Source of the DNA: Spirochaetales bacterium
Lineage (GTDB): Bacteria; Spirochaetota; Spirochaetia; DSM-27196; SLST01
Assembly (NCBI GenBank): GCA_007127335.1
Contig: SKZO01000094.1
Coordinates: forward strand, 1-36,133
Length of the DNA stretch: 36,133 nucleotides
Direction of reading: 5' to 3'
Within the stretch, counting starts at the first letter, position 1; each line of letters begins with the position of its first letter. A model generated the notes under the pieces. That model was not told where the DNA came from. It did no database searches and saw only the letters and a list, made by a program, of their open reading frames with translations. Of the stretch, positions 10,386 to 26,695 are shown piece by piece. A program made the position numbers and the translations under genes.

Positions 10386-11186
10386 TTGCGTGTACTGTTT
10401 ATTGGTGAAATAGTCGGCAAAGCCGGCGTCTACACGGTCAAATCGCTGCTGCGCGAACTGAAGACGGAGCTCTCGGTGGATTTCGTCGTCGCCAACGCGG
10501 ACGGCGCGACCGGCGGGTTCGGACTCGGGAAGAATCACGCGGTCTACCTGCGCAAGCTGGGGATCGACGTCATTACCGGAGGCGACCAGATCTACTTCAA
10601 GAAGGATATGGTCCCGCACATAGACTCGGCGTACTATCTGCTGCGTCCGGCCAACTATCCTCCGGCGACGCCGGGCCGCGGGTGGCGGTTCTACAGACTG
10701 GCCGACGACCGGAAGATCGTGGTGATCAGCATGCTCGGTCAGTCCGGGTTCGATCGGGTTCACGCGAGCAATCCGTTTACCTTTCTCCCCGAGCTCGCGA
10801 GCCGCGCCCGCAAGGAGACCCCGTATATCATCGTCGACTTCCATGCGACCACCACGGCGGAGAAGTACACGATGTTCCATCACGGCGACGGTCATGTGTC
10901 CGCGATCGCCGGGACCGGCACGCGCGTGCAGACCGCCGACGCTCGAGTCATGCCACGGGGAACTGCGGTCATAGGGGATCTCGGGCGCACAGGCAGCCGC
11001 GACAGCGTTGCCGGGCTCGACCCCGGTCCGGAAATCCGTAAGTTCATGACCGGCGTGCCCGAGCGTTCTTCGGATACCTGGGTCGGCCTCGAGCTGCAGG
11101 GCGCGGTGATCGACATAGGCGATGACGGCCGGGCTACCGGGATCAGCGCGGTCCGCCGCGAGTGCGCGGGGCCGGTCAATGAGTGA
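10386..11186 (+). CDS. YmdB/TIGR00282-like metallophosphoesterase homologue with altered active site
   Basis: The protein is 266 residues and collinear with B. subtilis YmdB (264), a 2',3'-cyclic-nucleotide phosphodiesterase that affects biofilm and RNA turnover. Family landmarks are MRVLFIGEIVGKAG at the start, LRPANYPPATPGRGW, TPYIIVDFHATTTAEK and VQTADARVMPRGTAVIGDLG. Judged against my memory of the family, Asp8 is Glu8, Glu39-Asn40 is Asp39-Gly40, Asn67-His68 is Asp67-Gln68, and the THTH pair is T-Gly178-T-Arg180. Only His153 survives. The TTG start is set by the conserved N terminus and the promoter position. It overlaps the RseC-like gene by 8 bases. It could be an altered enzyme or a regulatory or binding protein. 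Confidence 0.85.
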   Translation: MRVLFIGEIVGKAGVYTVKSLLRELKTELSVDFVVANADGATGGFGLGKNHAVYLRKLGIDVITGGDQIYFKKDMVPHIDSAYYLLRPANYPPATPGRGWRFYRLADDRKIVVISMLGQSGFDRVHASNPFTFLPELASRARKETPYIIVDFHATTTAEKYTMFHHGDGHVSAIAGTGTRVQTADARVMPRGTAVIGDLGRTGSRDSVAGLDPGPEIRKFMTGVPERSSDTWVGLELQGAVIDIGDDGRATGISAVRRECAGPVNE

Positions 11187-11631
11187 ACGAGCTGAGGTTG
11201 TCGCCGTGGACGGACGCCGCATTACCGTGCGCTGTGGACCGGCAGAGGCATGCGGGAGTTGCGCGAGTCCGCTCTGTGCGCCGCGTGTTCGTACCTACGA
11301 GGCGACCGTCGACCCGGAGCTCGCCGATGGTGTCGCTCCGGGAACGTGCGTGGAGATCGGTCCATCCGGGTCCGGGCTCGGCAAAGGGCTGCTGCTCTTT
11401 GTCATGCCGCTCGCTCTGTTTACCGTCGGGTATCTGGTTCCGGGCGACGGCCTAGCAGAGACGATGCGCGCCGTCACGGGCTTCGTAGGGCTTGCGGCGG
11501 GGCTGCTCCTTGCGGTAATCGTCGCACGAGTCTGGAAGGAAGCCGCACCGCGGGTGATCAGGGTCTGCGAGCCCGTCACGACTCCCGGTAGCCGTACACC
11601 GACCGGAACGACTCCACCACCTGGTGTTTGA
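11179..11631 (+). CDS. RseC/MucC-like membrane protein
   Basis: The protein is 150 residues. A short N-terminal beta domain carries the family cysteine cluster Cys19, Cys25, Cys28 and Cys33 (CGPAEACGSCASPLC). Two transmembrane helices follow at about 68-88 and 95-118, then a short Pro/Thr-rich cytoplasmic tail. RseC/MucC proteins act in redox reactions such as SoxR reduction, and in several bacteria they sit next to RNF-type electron transport genes. No rnf genes are in this window. The start ATG overlaps the ymdB stop (ATGAGTGA). The 3' end overlaps lipB on the other strand by 56 bases. Confidence 0.75.
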   Translation: MSERAEVVAVDGRRITVRCGPAEACGSCASPLCAPRVRTYEATVDPELADGVAPGTCVEIGPSGSGLGKGLLLFVMPLALFTVGYLVPGDGLAETMRAVTGFVGLAAGLLLAVIVARVWKEAAPRVIRVCEPVTTPGSRTPTGTTPPPGV

Positions 11632-19357: not shown

Positions 19358-19375
19358 TTGAGGGTGGAGGTTCGC

Positions 19376-20746
19376 TTGCAGTATCAACGGCCTGCCCTGG
19401 TTCAGGGGCAGCAGCTCAGGATGAATCCGCAGCTGTTCCAGAGCATTCAGCTCATGGCGCTGCCGATTCAGGAGCTCAAGTTCCGGATTGACGAGGAACT
19501 GCAGGCGAATCCGGCTCTCGAGGTCGTTGAGGACAACTCCACTGTTTCGATCGAGGAGAACGAGTCCGGCGAGCGTTCCGAGGAGTACGATTACTTCGAG
19601 AACAGCTCCGATCCCGGGTACACGCAGAGCGGCTACGATGATGAGGCGAGCGAGAACAAGCACCGGTTCATGGAAGGTGCGCTCTCGACGCCTGAGTCGC
19701 TGCACGAACACCTTCTCTGGCAGCTGCGTCTGCAGCCCATCCCGGAGCATGAGTTTGCCGTCGGCGAAATCCTGATCCTGAACCTTGACGACAACGGATT
19801 CCATCGTGAGCCGATCGAAACACTCTTCGAGCCACAGGACGAACCGACGGTCGACAGGATGGTGCAGATCATCCGGAGCTTCGAGCCCGTTGGTACCTGC
19901 GTCGCCGACTACCGCGAATCACTTCTCGTCCAGGCGAGTTTTGACGAGACCCGGCCTCCGGCCACTGATGCGATCATCACCAGCTACCTCGAGCTGCTGG
20001 ACCGGGGAAAGTACGATGACATCGCGAAGAGGCTGAAGATTGACGTGGAGGACGTTGAGGACGCGCTCGAGTACATACGGGGCCTCACGCCCTTCCCGGG
20101 ACGTCTCTGCTCGTCGGAGAAGCCAACGTACGTCATTCCTGATCTGATGGTGGTCATCCGCGACGGGCAGTTCGTGATCATTATGAACGATGAGGAGATT
20201 CCGGTTCTCGGGGTAAGCGACTCGTTCAGCGGTATGGCCGGTACCGACGCGAAGAAGGACGTCCGACGGTTCGTCAAGGCGAAGGTGAAGGACGCGAAGT
20301 GGTTCATCCACTCGATTCGTCAGCGGAACGAGACGCTCCTGAAGACGGCTCGCGCTATCGTCGAGTTTCAGCGGGACTTCTTCGTGAGGGGGGCAAAGTA
20401 CCTCGTGCCGCTTACGCTGAAGGACATTGCCGGTGAAGTCGGCGTGCATGAGGCGACGATTTCGCGCATCACGAACGGCAAGTATATGCAGACAGAGTGG
20501 GGAATCTTCGAGCTGAAGTACTTCTTCACGAACTCGATCTCGGGCGCGGGATCGGGCGGCTCGCGATTCTCGAAGGAGGGCGTGAAGCAGATCATCAAGG
20601 AAATTCTGGACGAGGAGACAGGTGACGAGCACCTGTCGGATCAGCGCATTGCGGACAGGCTCGCGTCGAGGGGGATCAGGATCGCCCGGCGGACGGTAGC
20701 GAAGTACCGCAAGGAGCTCGATATATCGTCGTCGTACAAACGATAG
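19376..20746 (+). CDS. rpoN: RNA polymerase sigma-54 factor
   Basis: The protein is 456 residues. Region I is Gln-rich (LQYQRPALVQGQQLRMNPQLFQ), followed by an acidic region II (about 50-100), the core-binding region, a helix-turn-helix (TLKDIAGEVGVHEATISRI) and the RpoN box ARRTVAKYRKEL near the C terminus that reads the -24 element. I chose TTG 19376 because GGGTGGAGG lies five to six bases upstream. An earlier TTG at 19358 would place that site inside the gene. It needs an AAA+ activator, and one (NtrX-like) lies 5 kb downstream in the same run. Confidence 0.95.
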   Translation: MQYQRPALVQGQQLRMNPQLFQSIQLMALPIQELKFRIDEELQANPALEVVEDNSTVSIEENESGERSEEYDYFENSSDPGYTQSGYDDEASENKHRFMEGALSTPESLHEHLLWQLRLQPIPEHEFAVGEILILNLDDNGFHREPIETLFEPQDEPTVDRMVQIIRSFEPVGTCVADYRESLLVQASFDETRPPATDAIITSYLELLDRGKYDDIAKRLKIDVEDVEDALEYIRGLTPFPGRLCSSEKPTYVIPDLMVVIRDGQFVIIMNDEEIPVLGVSDSFSGMAGTDAKKDVRRFVKAKVKDAKWFIHSIRQRNETLLKTARAIVEFQRDFFVRGAKYLVPLTLKDIAGEVGVHEATISRITNGKYMQTEWGIFELKYFFTNSISGAGSGGSRFSKEGVKQIIKEILDEETGDEHLSDQRIADRLASRGIRIARRTVAKYRKELDISSSYKR

Positions 20747-20754
20747 GAGGAATC

Positions 20755-21054
20755 ATGAAGCTTGGTATCAAGGGTGTGCATTTCGACGTGAAGGACGAGA
20801 CGAAGGAGTTCATCGAGGCGAAGCTCGAGAAGCTGGATTTTGCCAGCGACTACATCGTCGACCTCGACTTCACCCTCACGAAGGAGAATCCCGAGTTCGA
20901 GGCAGAGGCGAAGCTTCACCTGAAGTGGGGGCATCAGTCCGTCATCAAAGTCCACAGCTTTGACCTGCACGAAGGCATCAACACCTTGATCGACAAGCTT
21001 GACCACAAGGTCCGCAAGGAACGGGACAAGATCACCGATCACAAGTCGGGATGA
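20755..21054 (+). CDS. hpf: Ribosome hibernation-promoting factor, short form
   Basis: The protein is 99 residues with the beta-alpha-beta-beta-beta-alpha fold of HPF/YfiA: MKLGIKGVHFDVKDETKEFIEAKLEKL, a central pair of strands (VDLDFTLTKE, FEAEAKLHLKWG) and a basic C-terminal helix (LIDKLDHKVRKERDKI). It binds the 30S decoding region and silences ribosomes in stationary phase. AGGAGG stands just before the ATG. It directly follows rpoN, as in proteobacteria. Confidence 0.92.
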   Translation: MKLGIKGVHFDVKDETKEFIEAKLEKLDFASDYIVDLDFTLTKENPEFEAEAKLHLKWGHQSVIKVHSFDLHEGINTLIDKLDHKVRKERDKITDHKSG

Positions 21055-21064
21055 TCGGTGAGAC

Positions 21065-22087
21065 ATGAAGAAGTTCACGGTCCTCGACCTGCTGAGCCTT
21101 GATCTGAAAGAACACAACGCGCTCGATCTCGTGTGCATTGGGGGGCGCCCCGGTCTCTCGCGCGAGATCCGGATACCGGACCTGAATCGCCCCGGGCTCG
21201 CGCTTGGAGGCTTCTACGACAAGTTCGGGTTCGACCGGATCCAGATCTTCGGGCGTGGCGAGACCGCGTTCATCAGGAAGCTCGCGAACGAGAAGAAGAC
21301 CGATACGATAGAGGAGATCTTCAAGAGGAGTATCCCATGCGTGATCTTCACCCATGGTCTTGGACCAACCGACGACTTCCGGATGATCGCCGAAGGAGCC
21401 GGCTGTCCAATACTCCAGACGGATCTCCCTTCATCCGAGTTCTCCTCCCGACTGATCCGGGCGCTGTCGAACATCTTTGCCCCGCACGAGACGATACACG
21501 GGGTGCTCGTTGAGGTCTTCGGGGTTGGCGTCATCATCCTTGGTGACAGCGGCGTGGGAAAGAGCGAGGCGGCGCTCGAGCTGATAGAGCGCGGGCATCG
21601 TCTCGTCGCCGATGATGCGGTGGATATCAGCTGCGTTGCGGGAAACATCCTGCTCGGTGCCGGCGCAAACCGCGCGCTCGGCCACCACATGGAGATCCGC
21701 GGGCTCGGAATCATCAACGTGACCCACCTTTTCGGTGTGGGGGCGATCCGCGACAGCAAACAGATCCAGATGATCGTGGAGCTCGAGCTCTGGGATTCCA
21801 ACAAGCAGTACGACCGCATCGGCGCCGAGGAGCGTACCCGGGACATCCTCGGTGTCAGTATTCCGTACCTGCAGGTTCCGGTCAAACCGGGACGCAATGT
21901 CCCGATCATCATCGAGACGGCTGCGATGAACGAGAGGTTGAAGAAGATGGGCTACTTTTCCGCGCGGGAGTTCAACCAAAGTGTGTTAAAATGGCTCGAG
22001 AGTGAACACGCGCGCAACGCGTATTTCCAGAACACCGATCTTCTGCACCGGGGCGTACACAACGAAATCGATCAGGATGACGCATGA
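21065..22087 (+). CDS. hprK: HPr kinase/phosphorylase
   Basis: The protein is 340 residues. After an N-terminal domain (about 1-130) comes the kinase domain with P-loop GDSGVGKS (about 160-167), ADDAVDIS and the family signature MEIRGLGIINV, then the C-terminal loop with RNVPIIIETAAMN. It phosphorylates and dephosphorylates Ser46 of HPr, encoded by the next gene with a four-base overlap. Confidence 0.96.
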   Translation: MKKFTVLDLLSLDLKEHNALDLVCIGGRPGLSREIRIPDLNRPGLALGGFYDKFGFDRIQIFGRGETAFIRKLANEKKTDTIEEIFKRSIPCVIFTHGLGPTDDFRMIAEGAGCPILQTDLPSSEFSSRLIRALSNIFAPHETIHGVLVEVFGVGVIILGDSGVGKSEAALELIERGHRLVADDAVDISCVAGNILLGAGANRALGHHMEIRGLGIINVTHLFGVGAIRDSKQIQMIVELELWDSNKQYDRIGAEERTRDILGVSIPYLQVPVKPGRNVPIIIETAAMNERLKKMGYFSAREFNQSVLKWLESEHARNAYFQNTDLLHRGVHNEIDQDDA

Positions 22088-22356
22088 TTGAGAAAGACAT
22101 CACCGTGACCAACAGGGCCGGGATTCACGCGCGCCCGGCAGCCATGATCGTTCAGACGGCGAGCCGGTTCGAGTCCAAGATCATGCTCGGCAAGGACAAC
22201 GAAGAGATCAACGCCAAGTCGATCATGGGCATCATCACGCTCGGTGCCGGCTACGATACCGTTCTGAAGATGCGGGTTGACGGGCCCGACGAGCAGGAGG
22301 CTGCCGATGCGCTCGCCGCGTTGTTCGAGAACCGTTTCCAGGAAGAGTCTGCGTAA
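22084..22356 (+). CDS. ptsH: Phosphocarrier protein HPr
   Basis: The protein is 90 residues. It has His15 in AGIHARPA (phosphorylated by enzyme I) and Ser46 in NAKSIMGIITLGA (phosphorylated by HprK), so both regulatory sites are intact. The start overlaps the hprK stop as ATGA. No PTS permease or enzyme I is in this window, so the role in this neighbourhood may be regulatory. Confidence 0.96.
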   Translation: MIEKDITVTNRAGIHARPAAMIVQTASRFESKIMLGKDNEEINAKSIMGIITLGAGYDTVLKMRVDGPDEQEAADALAALFENRFQEESA

Positions 22357-22918
22357 TTCTGTCCTGCTGATCCCGTTCATACTAGTCGTCCCGGTCGCCG
22401 TGCCCGCCCAGATCGAACACGAGACGCAGGTGATCGCGCTGCGGGACTACTTCGAGGTGAGCATCTCCGTCAACGGCGCCGATCCGGATCTTCTCTTCGG
22501 CAATCTCGCTGAAGGGCTGACCGCCCGGCTCGAGTACGCGGTACGTGTGTCGCATCCACGCAATCCACCGCTCAGTCTCTTCGGATCGCGGCTGCTCAGC
22601 GAGTATCGGGTCATCTACCATGCCCGGTGGGACCCGTTTCGGGACCGCTATACGATCAGCACGCAGGACGGTGGTCTGTTCACCTTTCGCGATGAAGCCG
22701 CGCTGTGGCGATTCTTCTTCACCCTGCCGCACTACCGAATCCCGTGGCAGGGGATTGGTGCGGGCGATCCCGCGACGCCCTCGCGGTACCAGGTTGACAC
22801 GCAGGTTGTCTACGAGCCGGTCGTCTTCGTGCCCGGCCTGAGTATCCTGTCGGTGTTCCTTCCGCACGCCCGTCAGTCGAGCCTGTGGGAGCGGAGCTAC
22901 CTGGAGGAGCCTCGATGA
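22307..22918 (+). CDS. DUF4390 family secreted/membrane-associated protein upstream of ntrY
   Basis: The protein is 203 residues. It has an N-terminal basic stretch and hydrophobic segment VLLIPFILVVPVAVPAQ that looks like a signal peptide, then a predicted beta-rich domain (IEHETQVIALRDYFEVSISVNG, RLEYAVRVSHPR, FTFRDEAALWRFFFTLPHYRIP). DUF4390 genes commonly stand just before an NtrY-type kinase, as here. ATG 22307 has GGAGG six bases upstream, inside ptsH, giving a 50-base overlap with that gene. A CTG at 22349 would give a cleaner signal peptide. A periplasmic role in sensing for NtrY is inference. Confidence 0.65.
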   Translation: MRSPRCSRTVSRKSLRNSVLLIPFILVVPVAVPAQIEHETQVIALRDYFEVSISVNGADPDLLFGNLAEGLTARLEYAVRVSHPRNPPLSLFGSRLLSEYRVIYHARWDPFRDRYTISTQDGGLFTFRDEAALWRFFFTLPHYRIPWQGIGAGDPATPSRYQVDTQVVYEPVVFVPGLSILSVFLPHARQSSLWERSYLEEPR

Positions 22919-24741
22919 CGCCGCGACGAATGCCCGGCACGTCCGTGACCGGGTTGCTCAGTCTGATCGTGCTCTACCTCGTCCTCATCGTGCTGGTCCT
23001 TGTCTTCGCTCAGCAGGTACTGACCGACCTCTCCTTCACCGGGAGCAGCGCGACCGTCGTGGTTCTCGTTCTCGCGACGATGTTTCCTCTCTTCCTTGGC
23101 GCGTTGATCGTCTACAATGTCGTGCGTCTCGTCCATGACCGGGCCGTCAGGCGTCCGGGTGCGAGGCTCAAGTCACGGTTGTTGACCTTCTTCCTGGTCA
23201 TTGTCCTTCTCGCGAGTGTCCCCCAGGGGATCCTCTCGGTGAGCTTCATCCGCACGGCGATTCGCGCGTGGTTCTCGGAGGACACCGGCGAGGCCATTCG
23301 CGGTGGCCAGCAGATCGCGCTCTCGTTCTTCACCCAGCTCGAACGTGATCTCACGGCCTTTGCCTCGAGTCCCTGGGCGATGAGCCTGATGGACGGCGTC
23401 GAACGTCAGCCGGGGCGTGTGTGGGAGCGCGTTCAGGGGGTGAATCCAACACTCGACTCCTTTCAGGTCTTTGGACCGGCCTTTCAGGAGCTGTATGCCG
23501 GGGGAGCTGCCGAGCTCCATCTCACCCCCCTGCAGGCAGCCGCCGCGAGAGAAGGTCAGGTTGCCCGCGAGAGCGCGGGGGGTGTGAGCTTCCTCCGGGT
23601 GCGCCTGAGCTATTTCCCCGATGTCCGCTCTCCCGGCACCACGATCGGGGAGACCAGCCTGCCGGGAGCCTACACGATCATCATGGCCTCCCGTCTGCCG
23701 TCAGGCTTCGACGAGGCGGCGGGCCGTCTGACCGAGTCGCTCGAATTCTTCATTCAGCTCGACCGTTTCCAGGACAACTTCGTGACTGCGATCAGCCTCT
23801 TCTACGGGTTCTTCTCGGTCCCGCTCGTCCTGCTGAGCCTGCTCGTCAGCTTCCTCCTCAGCGACGAGATCATGAGGCCGATCGTGAGCCTCGAGGATGC
23901 GACGAGGCGCGTGGCGGACGGAGATTTCTCCACCCGCATCCTCGCCCGTCGTGGCGACGAGTTGTCGCTGCTTGTCGATTCGTTCAACCGGATGGTCGGC
24001 GAGCTCGAGCGCACCCGCGAGAAGATCATCCAGGCAGAGAAGATCGCGGCCTGGCAGGAGATCGCGCAGCGGCTCGCTCACGAAGTCAAGAACCCGCTGA
24101 CCCCTATTCGTCTTGCGGCTGAGCGCACGCTGCGCAGGTACCAGGACGGAAGCGAGAGTTTCGGTGAAGTGCTCGAAACATCGGTTCGCGCGATCGTGGG
24201 CGAGGTCGACAACCTGAGTGCCCTGCTCTCCGAGTTCCGGGAGTTCTCGCGGCTCCCGGCTCCGAAGATGGAAGCCGTCGCGCTCCACTCGGTGATCGGT
24301 GAGGTCGTTGCGACCTATTCGACGTGCCCGTCGGTGAGAGTCGAGACCGACGGTGTGTCTGAGGATCTCACTGTGTTCGCCGATCCGGGGCAGATTCGCC
24401 AGTTGGTGACGAACCTCGTCAAGAATGCGCTCGAGGCCGTTGGTGAACAGGGGAATGTGTCGGTCCATGTCGATCCCGTGAAGAAGGGTTCGAGCACCTT
24501 CTGCAGAATTCGCGTGGAGGATGACGGGCCGGGCATCCCCCGGGAGCAGCAGAGCAGGATCTTCGATCCGTATGTGACGACCAAGCGAAAAGGAACCGGG
24601 CTCGGGCTGGCTATTGTACAGCGCATCGTATTCGATCACCATGGGCAGATCTGGTTCGAAACGCAGCCGGGAGTGGGTACCACCTTCTACGTGGACCTGC
24701 CGGCGGCCGAGGCTGCACGCGACCGGAAAGGACTTCTATGA
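22915..24741 (+). CDS. ntrY: NtrY-like membrane sensor histidine kinase
   Basis: The protein is 608 residues. Transmembrane helices lie at about 12-33, 46-70 and 88-108, followed by an extracytoplasmic sensor region (about 115-290) and another helix (about 293-315). A HAMP domain (RRVADGDFSTRI), the HisKA box with phospho-acceptor His389 (AHEVKNPLTPIRL) and an HATPase domain with NLVKNALEAVG, DDGPGIP and GTGLGLAIV complete the NtrY plan. It overlaps the DUF4390 gene and ntrX by four bases each. The signal sensed is not known. Nitrogen is only the historic association. Confidence 0.88.
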   Translation: MTPRRMPGTSVTGLLSLIVLYLVLIVLVLVFAQQVLTDLSFTGSSATVVVLVLATMFPLFLGALIVYNVVRLVHDRAVRRPGARLKSRLLTFFLVIVLLASVPQGILSVSFIRTAIRAWFSEDTGEAIRGGQQIALSFFTQLERDLTAFASSPWAMSLMDGVERQPGRVWERVQGVNPTLDSFQVFGPAFQELYAGGAAELHLTPLQAAAAREGQVARESAGGVSFLRVRLSYFPDVRSPGTTIGETSLPGAYTIIMASRLPSGFDEAAGRLTESLEFFIQLDRFQDNFVTAISLFYGFFSVPLVLLSLLVSFLLSDEIMRPIVSLEDATRRVADGDFSTRILARRGDELSLLVDSFNRMVGELERTREKIIQAEKIAAWQEIAQRLAHEVKNPLTPIRLAAERTLRRYQDGSESFGEVLETSVRAIVGEVDNLSALLSEFREFSRLPAPKMEAVALHSVIGEVVATYSTCPSVRVETDGVSEDLTVFADPGQIRQLVTNLVKNALEAVGEQGNVSVHVDPVKKGSSTFCRIRVEDDGPGIPREQQSRIFDPYVTTKRKGTGLGLAIVQRIVFDHHGQIWFETQPGVGTTFYVDLPAAEAARDRKGLL

Positions 24742-26099
24742 GCAGCGTTCTGGTAATCGACGACGAGGCGGGCATTCGCGATGTGCTGAAAGAGATCCTC
24801 AGCGACGAAGGGTACGTCGTCTTCACTGCCGAGGATGGGATCGAGGGGCTTGAGCTCGTTCGCCACGAGCGGATCGATCTCGTTCTGCTGGACGTCTGGC
24901 TTCCGAACATGGGCGGCATGGACGTACTCAAGCACCTGAAGAGTGAGAAGCCGGAGATCGAAGTTATCGTGATATCAGGCCACGGGAACATAGACCTCGC
25001 GGTGAAGGCGGTCAAGCTCGGCGCGTTCGATTTTCTCGAGAAGCCTCTGAGCCTCGATCGTGTGACCACGATCACACGCAATGCGCTCGAGATGGAGGAG
25101 CTCAAACGCGAGAACCGGACACTCAGGAACCGGCTCGTGAACCGCGACGAGATGATCGGCGAGAGCAAGCCGATGAAGGAGGTCCAGGCGCTCATTCGAC
25201 AGAGCGCGCCCAGCGATTCGCGTGTCATGATCTTTGGCGAGAACGGTACCGGCAAGGAGCTCGTCGCGCGCGAGATCCATCGGCGCAGCCTGCGCAGCGA
25301 AGGGCCCTTCGTGGAGGTGAACTGCGCGGCGATTCCCGACACACTGATCGAGAGTGAGTTATTCGGGCACGAGAAAGGGGCATTCACGAGCGCGATCGCC
25401 CGGAGAAAGGGGAAGTTCGAGACGGCTCACCGGGGCACGCTCTTCCTGGACGAGATTGCCGATATGTCGCTGAGCGCACAGGCGAAGGTGCTCCGTGTCA
25501 TCCAGGAGATGCGCTTCGAACGTGTGGGAGGCGAGGAGTCGATCGGTGTGGATGTGCGAGTCATTGCCGCGACGAACAAGGACATCAGGGAGGAGGTGGA
25601 GTCGCGTCGGTTCCGCGAGGATCTCTACTTCCGTCTCAACGTCGTCTGGATTCACGTCCCGGCACTCCGTGAACGGCGCGATGACATCCCGCTGCTCGCC
25701 GAGTACTACCTGCAGAAGTTCGTCGGTGAAGAGGAGCAGACGCGCCGATTCGACGCTTCGGCCGTGTCGCGAATGAAGGAATATGAGTGGCCGGGCAACG
25801 TCAGGGAATTGAAAAACTTCGTGGAACGGGTTACTATCATGTCGGACGAGGAGGTGCTCACCCGGGACCTCGTGGACTTCTTCCTGGGCGAGCGAAGCGT
25901 CGGGCCGACCGATCCAGTGCTCGAAGAGTTCGGCGACATGGGGCTCAACGAGGCACGCGACGCGTTTGAGCGTCGCTACATCGAGCACAGCCTGCGCGAG
26001 AACGACTACAACGTCACCCGAACGGCGACCGAGCTCGGTATCTACCCGAGCAACCTCCACGCGAAGATCAAGAAGCACGGGATCCAGGTGGAGCGATGA
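24738..26099 (+). CDS. ntrX: NtrX-like sigma-54-dependent response regulator
   Basis: The protein is 453 residues. The receiver domain has Asp8-Asp9 and phospho-acceptor Asp52 (LVLLDVWLP). The AAA+ domain has Walker A GENGTGKE (168-175), the sigma-54 contact loop reading GAFTSA (about 214-219) and Walker B GTLFLDEIADM. The Fis-type helix-turn-helix lies at the end (YNVTRTATELGIYPSNLHAKIKKHG). It should activate RpoN promoters when phosphorylated by NtrY. The contact loop differs from the consensus GAFTGA at the fifth position but keeps the critical threonine. ATGA overlaps occur at both ends. Confidence 0.93.
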   Translation: MSSVLVIDDEAGIRDVLKEILSDEGYVVFTAEDGIEGLELVRHERIDLVLLDVWLPNMGGMDVLKHLKSEKPEIEVIVISGHGNIDLAVKAVKLGAFDFLEKPLSLDRVTTITRNALEMEELKRENRTLRNRLVNRDEMIGESKPMKEVQALIRQSAPSDSRVMIFGENGTGKELVAREIHRRSLRSEGPFVEVNCAAIPDTLIESELFGHEKGAFTSAIARRKGKFETAHRGTLFLDEIADMSLSAQAKVLRVIQEMRFERVGGEESIGVDVRVIAATNKDIREEVESRRFREDLYFRLNVVWIHVPALRERRDDIPLLAEYYLQKFVGEEEQTRRFDASAVSRMKEYEWPGNVRELKNFVERVTIMSDEEVLTRDLVDFFLGERSVGPTDPVLEEFGDMGLNEARDAFERRYIEHSLRENDYNVTRTATELGIYPSNLHAKIKKHGIQVER

Positions 26100-26695
26100 A
26101 GGCGATTACCAGACGACAGTCGGAAGTTCTGGAACACATAAAGGCCTTCATCGACGAGCATCACTTCCCCCCCACGATGCGGGAGATTTCTGAGCACTTC
26201 GGTATCTCGGTCAAGGGTGCATACGATCACGTCAAGGCACTCGAGCGCAAGGGCTGCCTCAAGATCGACAACAACCGGTCACGCACGATCGAGGTCATCG
26301 GCCATGACGACCCGGAGCAGATCATCGAGGTTCCCGTACTCGGGAACGTCGCGGCCGGGCTTCCGCTGCTGGCAGAGGAGAACCGTGAAGGGACGGTCAG
26401 GTGCCCGGTCGACCAGCTTGGCCAGGGTGTGCATTTCGCGCTTCACGTGCACGGTGACAGCATGCGCGACGCCGGGATCATGGACGGAGACCTGGCGATT
26501 TTCCGCCAGCAGCCGGTCGCGTCGAATGGGGATATCGTCGTTGCGATGGTCGAGGACGCGGTTACGCTCAAGCGATTCTACAAGGAGAAGAACCGCGTTC
26601 GGCTTCAGGCGGAGAATCCCGACTATCCCCCCATTTTCACGCAGAACGTCCGCGTTCTCGGGAAGCTCTCGCAGCTGATCCGCCGGTATGAGTAG
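26096..26695 (+). CDS. lexA: LexA SOS repressor
   Basis: The protein is 199 residues. The N-terminal winged helix (ITRRQSEVLEHIKAFIDEH, TMREISEHFGISVKGAYDHVKAL) binds operators. The C-terminal S24 peptidase domain has cleavage site Ala87-Gly88 (NVAAGLP), Ser122 (HGDSM) and Lys159 (VTLKR), so RecA-stimulated self-cleavage should work. The start overlaps the ntrX stop (ATGA), leaving no room for a promoter or LexA operator directly upstream. Autoregulation would have to act on an internal or distant promoter. Confidence 0.96.
   Translation: MKAITRRQSEVLEHIKAFIDEHHFPPTMREISEHFGISVKGAYDHVKALERKGCLKIDNNRSRTIEVIGHDDPEQIIEVPVLGNVAAGLPLLAEENREGTVRCPVDQLGQGVHFALHVHGDSMRDAGIMDGDLAIFRQQPVASNGDIVVAMVEDAVTLKRFYKEKNRVRLQAENPDYPPIFTQNVRVLGKLSQLIRRYE

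Follow-up and report, generated by a model that had tools for sequence, protein, structure and literature searches.

The window analysed here, a 36,133-nucleotide stretch of DNA from a Spirochaetales bacterium, carries a gene for a paralogue of the YmdB family of phosphodiesterases with an altered active site. The gene encodes 266 aa, starts with TTG downstream of an AGGG-like ribosome site and stops with TGA. Its stop overlaps by 8 bases (ATGAGTGA, 11179-11186) the start of a second gene, whose product was recognised by a profile match as an RseC/MucC-family membrane protein. The two genes and the codons that are central to the argument are listed below, with the YmdB equivalents assigned by alignment to the Bacillus subtilis protein.

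10386..11186, forward strand: altered YmdB paralogue, TTG start at 10386, stop TGA at 11184-11186
10407..10409, forward strand: Glu8 (YmdB Asp8, metal ligand)
10500..10505, forward strand: Asp39-Gly40 (YmdB Glu39-Asn40, metal site)
10584..10589, forward strand: Asp67-Gln68 (YmdB Asn67, metal ligand, and His68, catalytic acid)
10596..10598, forward strand: Phe71 (YmdB Asp71, partner of His68)
10842..10844, forward strand: His153 (YmdB His150), the sole unchanged ligand
10917..10925, forward strand: Gly178-Thr179-Arg180 (YmdB His175-Thr-His177)
10986..10988, forward strand: Arg201 (YmdB Met198), a new conserved Arg of the altered clade
11179..11631, forward strand: RseC/MucC-family membrane protein with the Cys-rich motif CGPAEACGSCASPLC

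Membership of the YmdB family is clear at every level examined. The protein matches PF13277 with 277.7 bits (cut-off 27) over profile positions 1-252 of 253, and in phmmer it aligns end-to-end and without gaps around the sites to B. subtilis YmdB (4b2o, E 3e-50), so that the collinearity with YmdB claimed in an initial annotation, made from the sequence alone, holds. The scaffold motifs are kept. The predicted fold, which was obtained with AlphaFold2 from an alignment of the window and locus proteins that included canonical relatives, has a pLDDT of 97.3 and a pTM of 0.94 and is that of YmdB: Foldseek superposes it on 4b2o with a TM score of 0.94 and an rmsd of 1.2, and its top four hits are solved structures of the family (TM 0.90-0.94), far above 5'-nucleotidases, the epimerase MslH and Mre11. 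The known structures of the family are those of B. subtilis YmdB (4B2O), Deinococcus radiodurans DR1281 (1T70), Mycoplasma pneumoniae (1T71) and Thermus thermophilus TTHA0625 (2CV9). Despite sharing whole-length homology, scaffold motifs and predicted fold with the TIGR00282/PF13277 enzymes, the window protein scores only 211.6 bits against TIGR00282, below the curated cut-off of 254.15, and judging from the model the scaffold appears intact, with the difference confined to the chemistry of the pocket.

In YmdB the pocket contains Fe ligands and a His68-Asp71 acid/base pair (PMC10406935). Of the eight canonical active-site positions, the window protein differs at seven: the two-metal site D8 E39 N40 N67 H150 H175 H177 reads E D G D H G R, and the catalytic pair is replaced by Q68 and F71. 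Each substitution listed initially (E8, D39, G40, D67, Q68, G178 and R180) is borne out by the alignment, as is the survival of His153 alone. The accompanying statement that almost all catalytic residues had been lost is right as a count, but D8E, E39D and N67D leave potential carboxylate ligands in place and the statement therefore needs rewording; a fairer description of the sequence would be that all histidines but one and both asparagines have been lost, with acids kept or gained. A shift of the metal ligands to nearby positions was ruled out, since the sites align without gaps and the 65 canonical rows are in register. A pseudogene or sequencing error is likewise ruled out, as the frames are open and the protein is conserved in dozens of genera, and contamination or an oddity of one bin was ruled out by the presence of the altered copy in complete single-contig genomes.

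Relatives were drawn from 60 related genomes, from a contig scan of 84,980 species and from a sample of the phylum (together loci L003-L153). The contig scan reaches close relatives only, and its results therefore do not prove absence outside the Spirochaetota; the records it returned are titled Spirochaetota with a single exception, which is titled Cloacimonadota, shows 74% identity and is seemingly mislabelled. After removal of duplicates, the 65 canonical rows, three of which are the references from B. subtilis, Deinococcus and Mycoplasma, all read DENNHHHH at the eight positions, and no altered copy does so. In a maximum-likelihood tree built without the site columns, 58 thinned altered copies fall on one side of a single branch (SH-aLRT 94, quick search). 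The altered copy is spread across the Spirochaetia, including Borrelia-type genomes, and occurs in two further families elsewhere in the phylum (f28 and f40, from other classes), which are sister to the Spirochaetia in the altered and the canonical trees alike. This is the pattern expected if a single old duplication was followed by vertical descent of both copies together, and it is matched by a correlation between the pairwise identities of altered and intact proteins in 33 genomes (Spearman 0.80), again as expected from joint descent. Between these genomes the altered protein has a mean identity of 45% and the intact one of 47%, and close pairs of altered copies have a dN/dS of about 0.06 (0.030/0.488); the altered copy is under strong purifying selection. 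Together with the PF13277 score, these values uphold the view that the scaffold is conserved and the gene is not decaying. A clade sharing the substitutions, named at the outset as what would support a new function, thus exists; the earlier observation was real, and more general than a single sequence could show.

Two records in this set carry titles that look wrong: the altered YmdB of the one titled Cloacimonadota (L037) groups with the Spirochaetales family of the window, and that of a record titled Treponema denticola (L053) groups with other treponemes. In one genome (G056), besides an intact and an altered copy, a contig end carries a third YmdB-type sequence (L092, on G056:C74); this truncated fragment has the canonical residues DENNH and could come from a second strain in the bin.

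What replaces the metal site is strikingly regular (B. subtilis numbering is used for the clade). Among the 58 altered copies, position 8 is Glu in 56, position 67 is an acid in all (30 D, 28 E) and position 177, the window's Arg180, is Arg or Lys in all (41 R, 17 K). His68 is found in none of the 58, its place being taken by Q, C, K, L, N, W, F, G or others; His150 is kept in 52; and position 175 is His in 23 and Gly in 31. The residue at window position 201 is Arg in 53 of the 58, against M, A, S, F or L in canonical copies. Parsimony places some 15 changes between D and E at position 67 and some 10 between R and K at position 177, with no other residue at either; at these two positions the constraint is on whether the charge is negative or positive and not on the identity of the residue. 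The exchange of Asn for an acid and of His for a base at YmdB metal positions points to a basic side chain that now balances the charge of the acids at a former metal position. In raw counts R pairs with D/D and K with E/E (DDR 27, EEK 10), but this pairing across sites is not significant with phylogenetically independent pairs; covariation of 177 with 39, 67 and 175 was accordingly dropped as proof of contact and is not used as evidence here, and the salt bridges are put forward as a proposed arrangement.

Some members stand apart. L042 is the sole altered copy that keeps Asp8 (DDGECHHK) and is a possible intermediate; L069, from a 1.8 Mb genome (G051), is the most divergent (QDAEASGK) and alone lacks an acid at position 8; and altered copies of one subgroup (L048, L049, L051 and L074) have an extra stretch, absent in most others, in the hairpin near window residues 105-110.

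Could these proteins still be ordinary phosphodiesterases of the YmdB type that tolerate a divergent site? They belong to the same family, have the same predicted fold and offer carboxylates at positions 8, 39 and 67, yet His68, His175 and His177, invariant in canonical copies, are all changed in the window protein, His177 is Arg or Lys in every altered copy, and the source genome has an intact copy besides; we regard this as very improbable, and loss of YmdB-type activity in the altered copy as likely. Less remote, and still in our view unlikely, is a repurposed one-metal enzyme, in which the acids at 8, 39 and 67 together with His150, and with His175 where it is kept, would bind one hard metal (Ca, Mg or Mn, for instance) and serve a different reaction. 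The precedent is MslH, a lasso-peptide epimerase of the YmdB fold with one Ca(II), which lost one metal and changed its reaction (PMC10406935); it is among the structural neighbours of the window protein and shows that loss of a metal and a new function are compatible with this fold, though it is itself a much larger protein with an added domain. The acid that replaces the neutral Asn67 in every member and the retention of His175 in part of the clade would suit such an enzyme. Against it, the Ca(II) ligands of MslH, Glu44, Asn87, His259 and His261 (YmdB E39, N67, H150 and H175), correspond to D39, D67, H153 and G178 in the window protein, one identical and one similar, and its acid/base pairs His88-Asp91 and His295-Asp11 (window Q68/F71 and R180/E8) are not kept. 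Borrelia-type members read N/E/D/G at positions 39/67/150/175, and no replacement of the general acid is conserved at position 68. Arg or Lys at 177 is not a metal ligand, which favours a metal-free site; members with His150, His175 and acids at 39 and 67 might hold one metal. Among the nucleotide sensor, pseudoenzyme and altered metal site that were offered initially, it is the pseudoenzyme that is best supported, with a one-metal site possible in some members.

The intact copy of the source genome lies on another contig (L001). Its sites read DENNHHHH, from which it is judged to be active, its TIGR00282 score is 285.9 bits and its AlphaFold2 model has a pLDDT of 96.8. As named from their translations, the gene directly before it has the KH/HD features of RNase Y and the gene after it is of the rRNA-methyltransferase/haemolysin-A type; two canonical copies in other genomes (G115 and G105) directly adjoin a formally scored RNase Y. 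The altered gene has another location, usually flanked by a divergent HSP20 gene on one side and by convergent lipB/cheB/cheR genes on the other.

The overlap with the RseC gene, read initially as translational coupling, is real in the window but is not general: by a profile that can miss divergent RseC proteins, 33 of 75 altered loci have a gene of the RseC type after the YmdB gene, and no canonical locus does. Three loci from the genus of the window (L006, L007 and L009) have lipB directly downstream and no RseC, and in Borrelia-type genomes murA lies beside the altered copy, again with no RseC. With RseC absent from so many altered loci it cannot be an essential partner, and an obligatory partnership was ruled out on these counts; RseC may be a functional neighbour. 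These data bear on a further explanation, that of a metal-free ligand sensor acting on its own, in which Arg180 and Arg201 would bind a nucleotide or another anion and the signal would bypass the active YmdB, going to RseC and the redox apparatus of the membrane or to some other target. The basic residues newly conserved at two positions and an RseC gene that overlaps only altered copies speak for it; the many loci where RseC is not adjacent, the acid gained by the pocket, which disfavours an anion, and the near all-or-none occurrence with the active copy, which a lone sensor would leave unexplained, speak against it, and on balance we think it improbable. In the window, the RseC gene and lipB, on the reverse strand, converge and overlap by about 56 bases (11576-11631).

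Co-occurrence was assessed in 246 Spirochaetia genomes that are at least 95% complete. A match was found in 193, of which 184 have two or more and nine have one, and 53 have none; two matches mean one intact and one altered copy where the sequences were fetched, and for the remaining genomes this is inferred from scores. Judged likewise from scores, six of the nine single-match genomes have only the altered copy and three only the intact one, and nine is a number that assembly gaps could give. Such near all-or-none co-occurrence favours, without proving, a function shared with the active paralogue. The genomes without a match, among the 20 of 53 that were listed, all belong to family f24, so that co-loss is supported by few events, and most of the pattern could come from joint inheritance alone. 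Within this family, genus g33 holds both keepers of the two copies and a 1.1-Mb genome with neither, and joint loss therefore probably happened at least twice. Loss of RNase Y was ruled out as its cause, since RNase Y is retained in all 10 of the tested genomes that lack both copies.

The reading we tentatively prefer, with slightly less than even confidence, is that the altered protein is an ancient pseudo-phosphodiesterase whose metal centre has turned into a charged cluster and which most likely acts with or on the active YmdB paralogue. On this proposal ymdB would have been duplicated before the radiation of the Spirochaetia and the two sister families in the phylum; one duplicate, usually located beside RNase Y, would have kept its enzymatic role, and the other would have lost the two-metal centre through His177 to Arg/Lys, Asn67 to Asp/Glu, Asp8 to Glu and loss of the His68-Asp71 pair. 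A cationic side chain, held by the acids around it, would then stand in for metal A, which would let the pocket fold without metals and leave it unable to hydrolyse phosphodiesters. The protein may act through its surface or pocket with the active paralogue, in a heteromeric or regulatory manner like that of dead-paralogue activators. Of these, the trypanosomatid AdoMetDC prozyme (PMC5201418) and the deoxyhypusine synthase paralogue (PMC3663545) resemble the present case in that the dead copy has been retained together with an active one of the same enzyme; they differ in fold and kingdom, and a complex of altered and active YmdB is putative here. A more ambitious form of the idea, which we hold to be speculative and somewhat doubtful, is that an obligate pair of active and metal-free YmdB controls cyclic-nucleotide or RNA turnover in spirochaetes, with a basic side chain in place of the catalytic metal, the pair having been co-inherited since before the class arose and co-lost in some treponemes.

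YmdB is a poorly understood global regulator with effects on biofilm formation, motility and nanotubes, and its target is debated. A class of bacteria that keeps an active and a matched dead copy would provide a natural experiment on roles of YmdB beyond hydrolysis, and replacement of a catalytic metal by a cation would be a clear route to a pseudoenzyme. The altered YmdB is a variant of a known family and not a new kind of system. Automatic annotation based on Pfam would label altered copies as phosphodiesterases, which is probably wrong. A literature search found no paper on the altered clade in the collection covered; part of the literature on 'YmdB', such as the papers on RNase III, concerns an unrelated Escherichia coli macrodomain protein of the same name.

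The clade extends to pathogens. In Borrelia-type genomes the gene order is lspA, a small ORF, altered YmdB and murA, and from the matching order BB_0469-BB_0472 we take this copy to be BB_0471 of B. burgdorferi. BB_0471 has been given merely as a 'hypothetical protein' (PMC6711536), and the present analysis supplies a hypothesis of function for it and for other 'hypothetical' or mis-named metallophosphoesterases. Members of this type are further altered than the window protein (E8 N39 F40 E67 N68 D150 G175 R177) and have no RseC alongside. A putatively assigned Treponema denticola-like genus (g32) has the altered copy with RseC.

Elsewhere in the window, positions 19358-26695 encode a sigma-54 factor and an HPr kinase, as well as a histidine kinase with a sigma-54-dependent response regulator and LexA after it.
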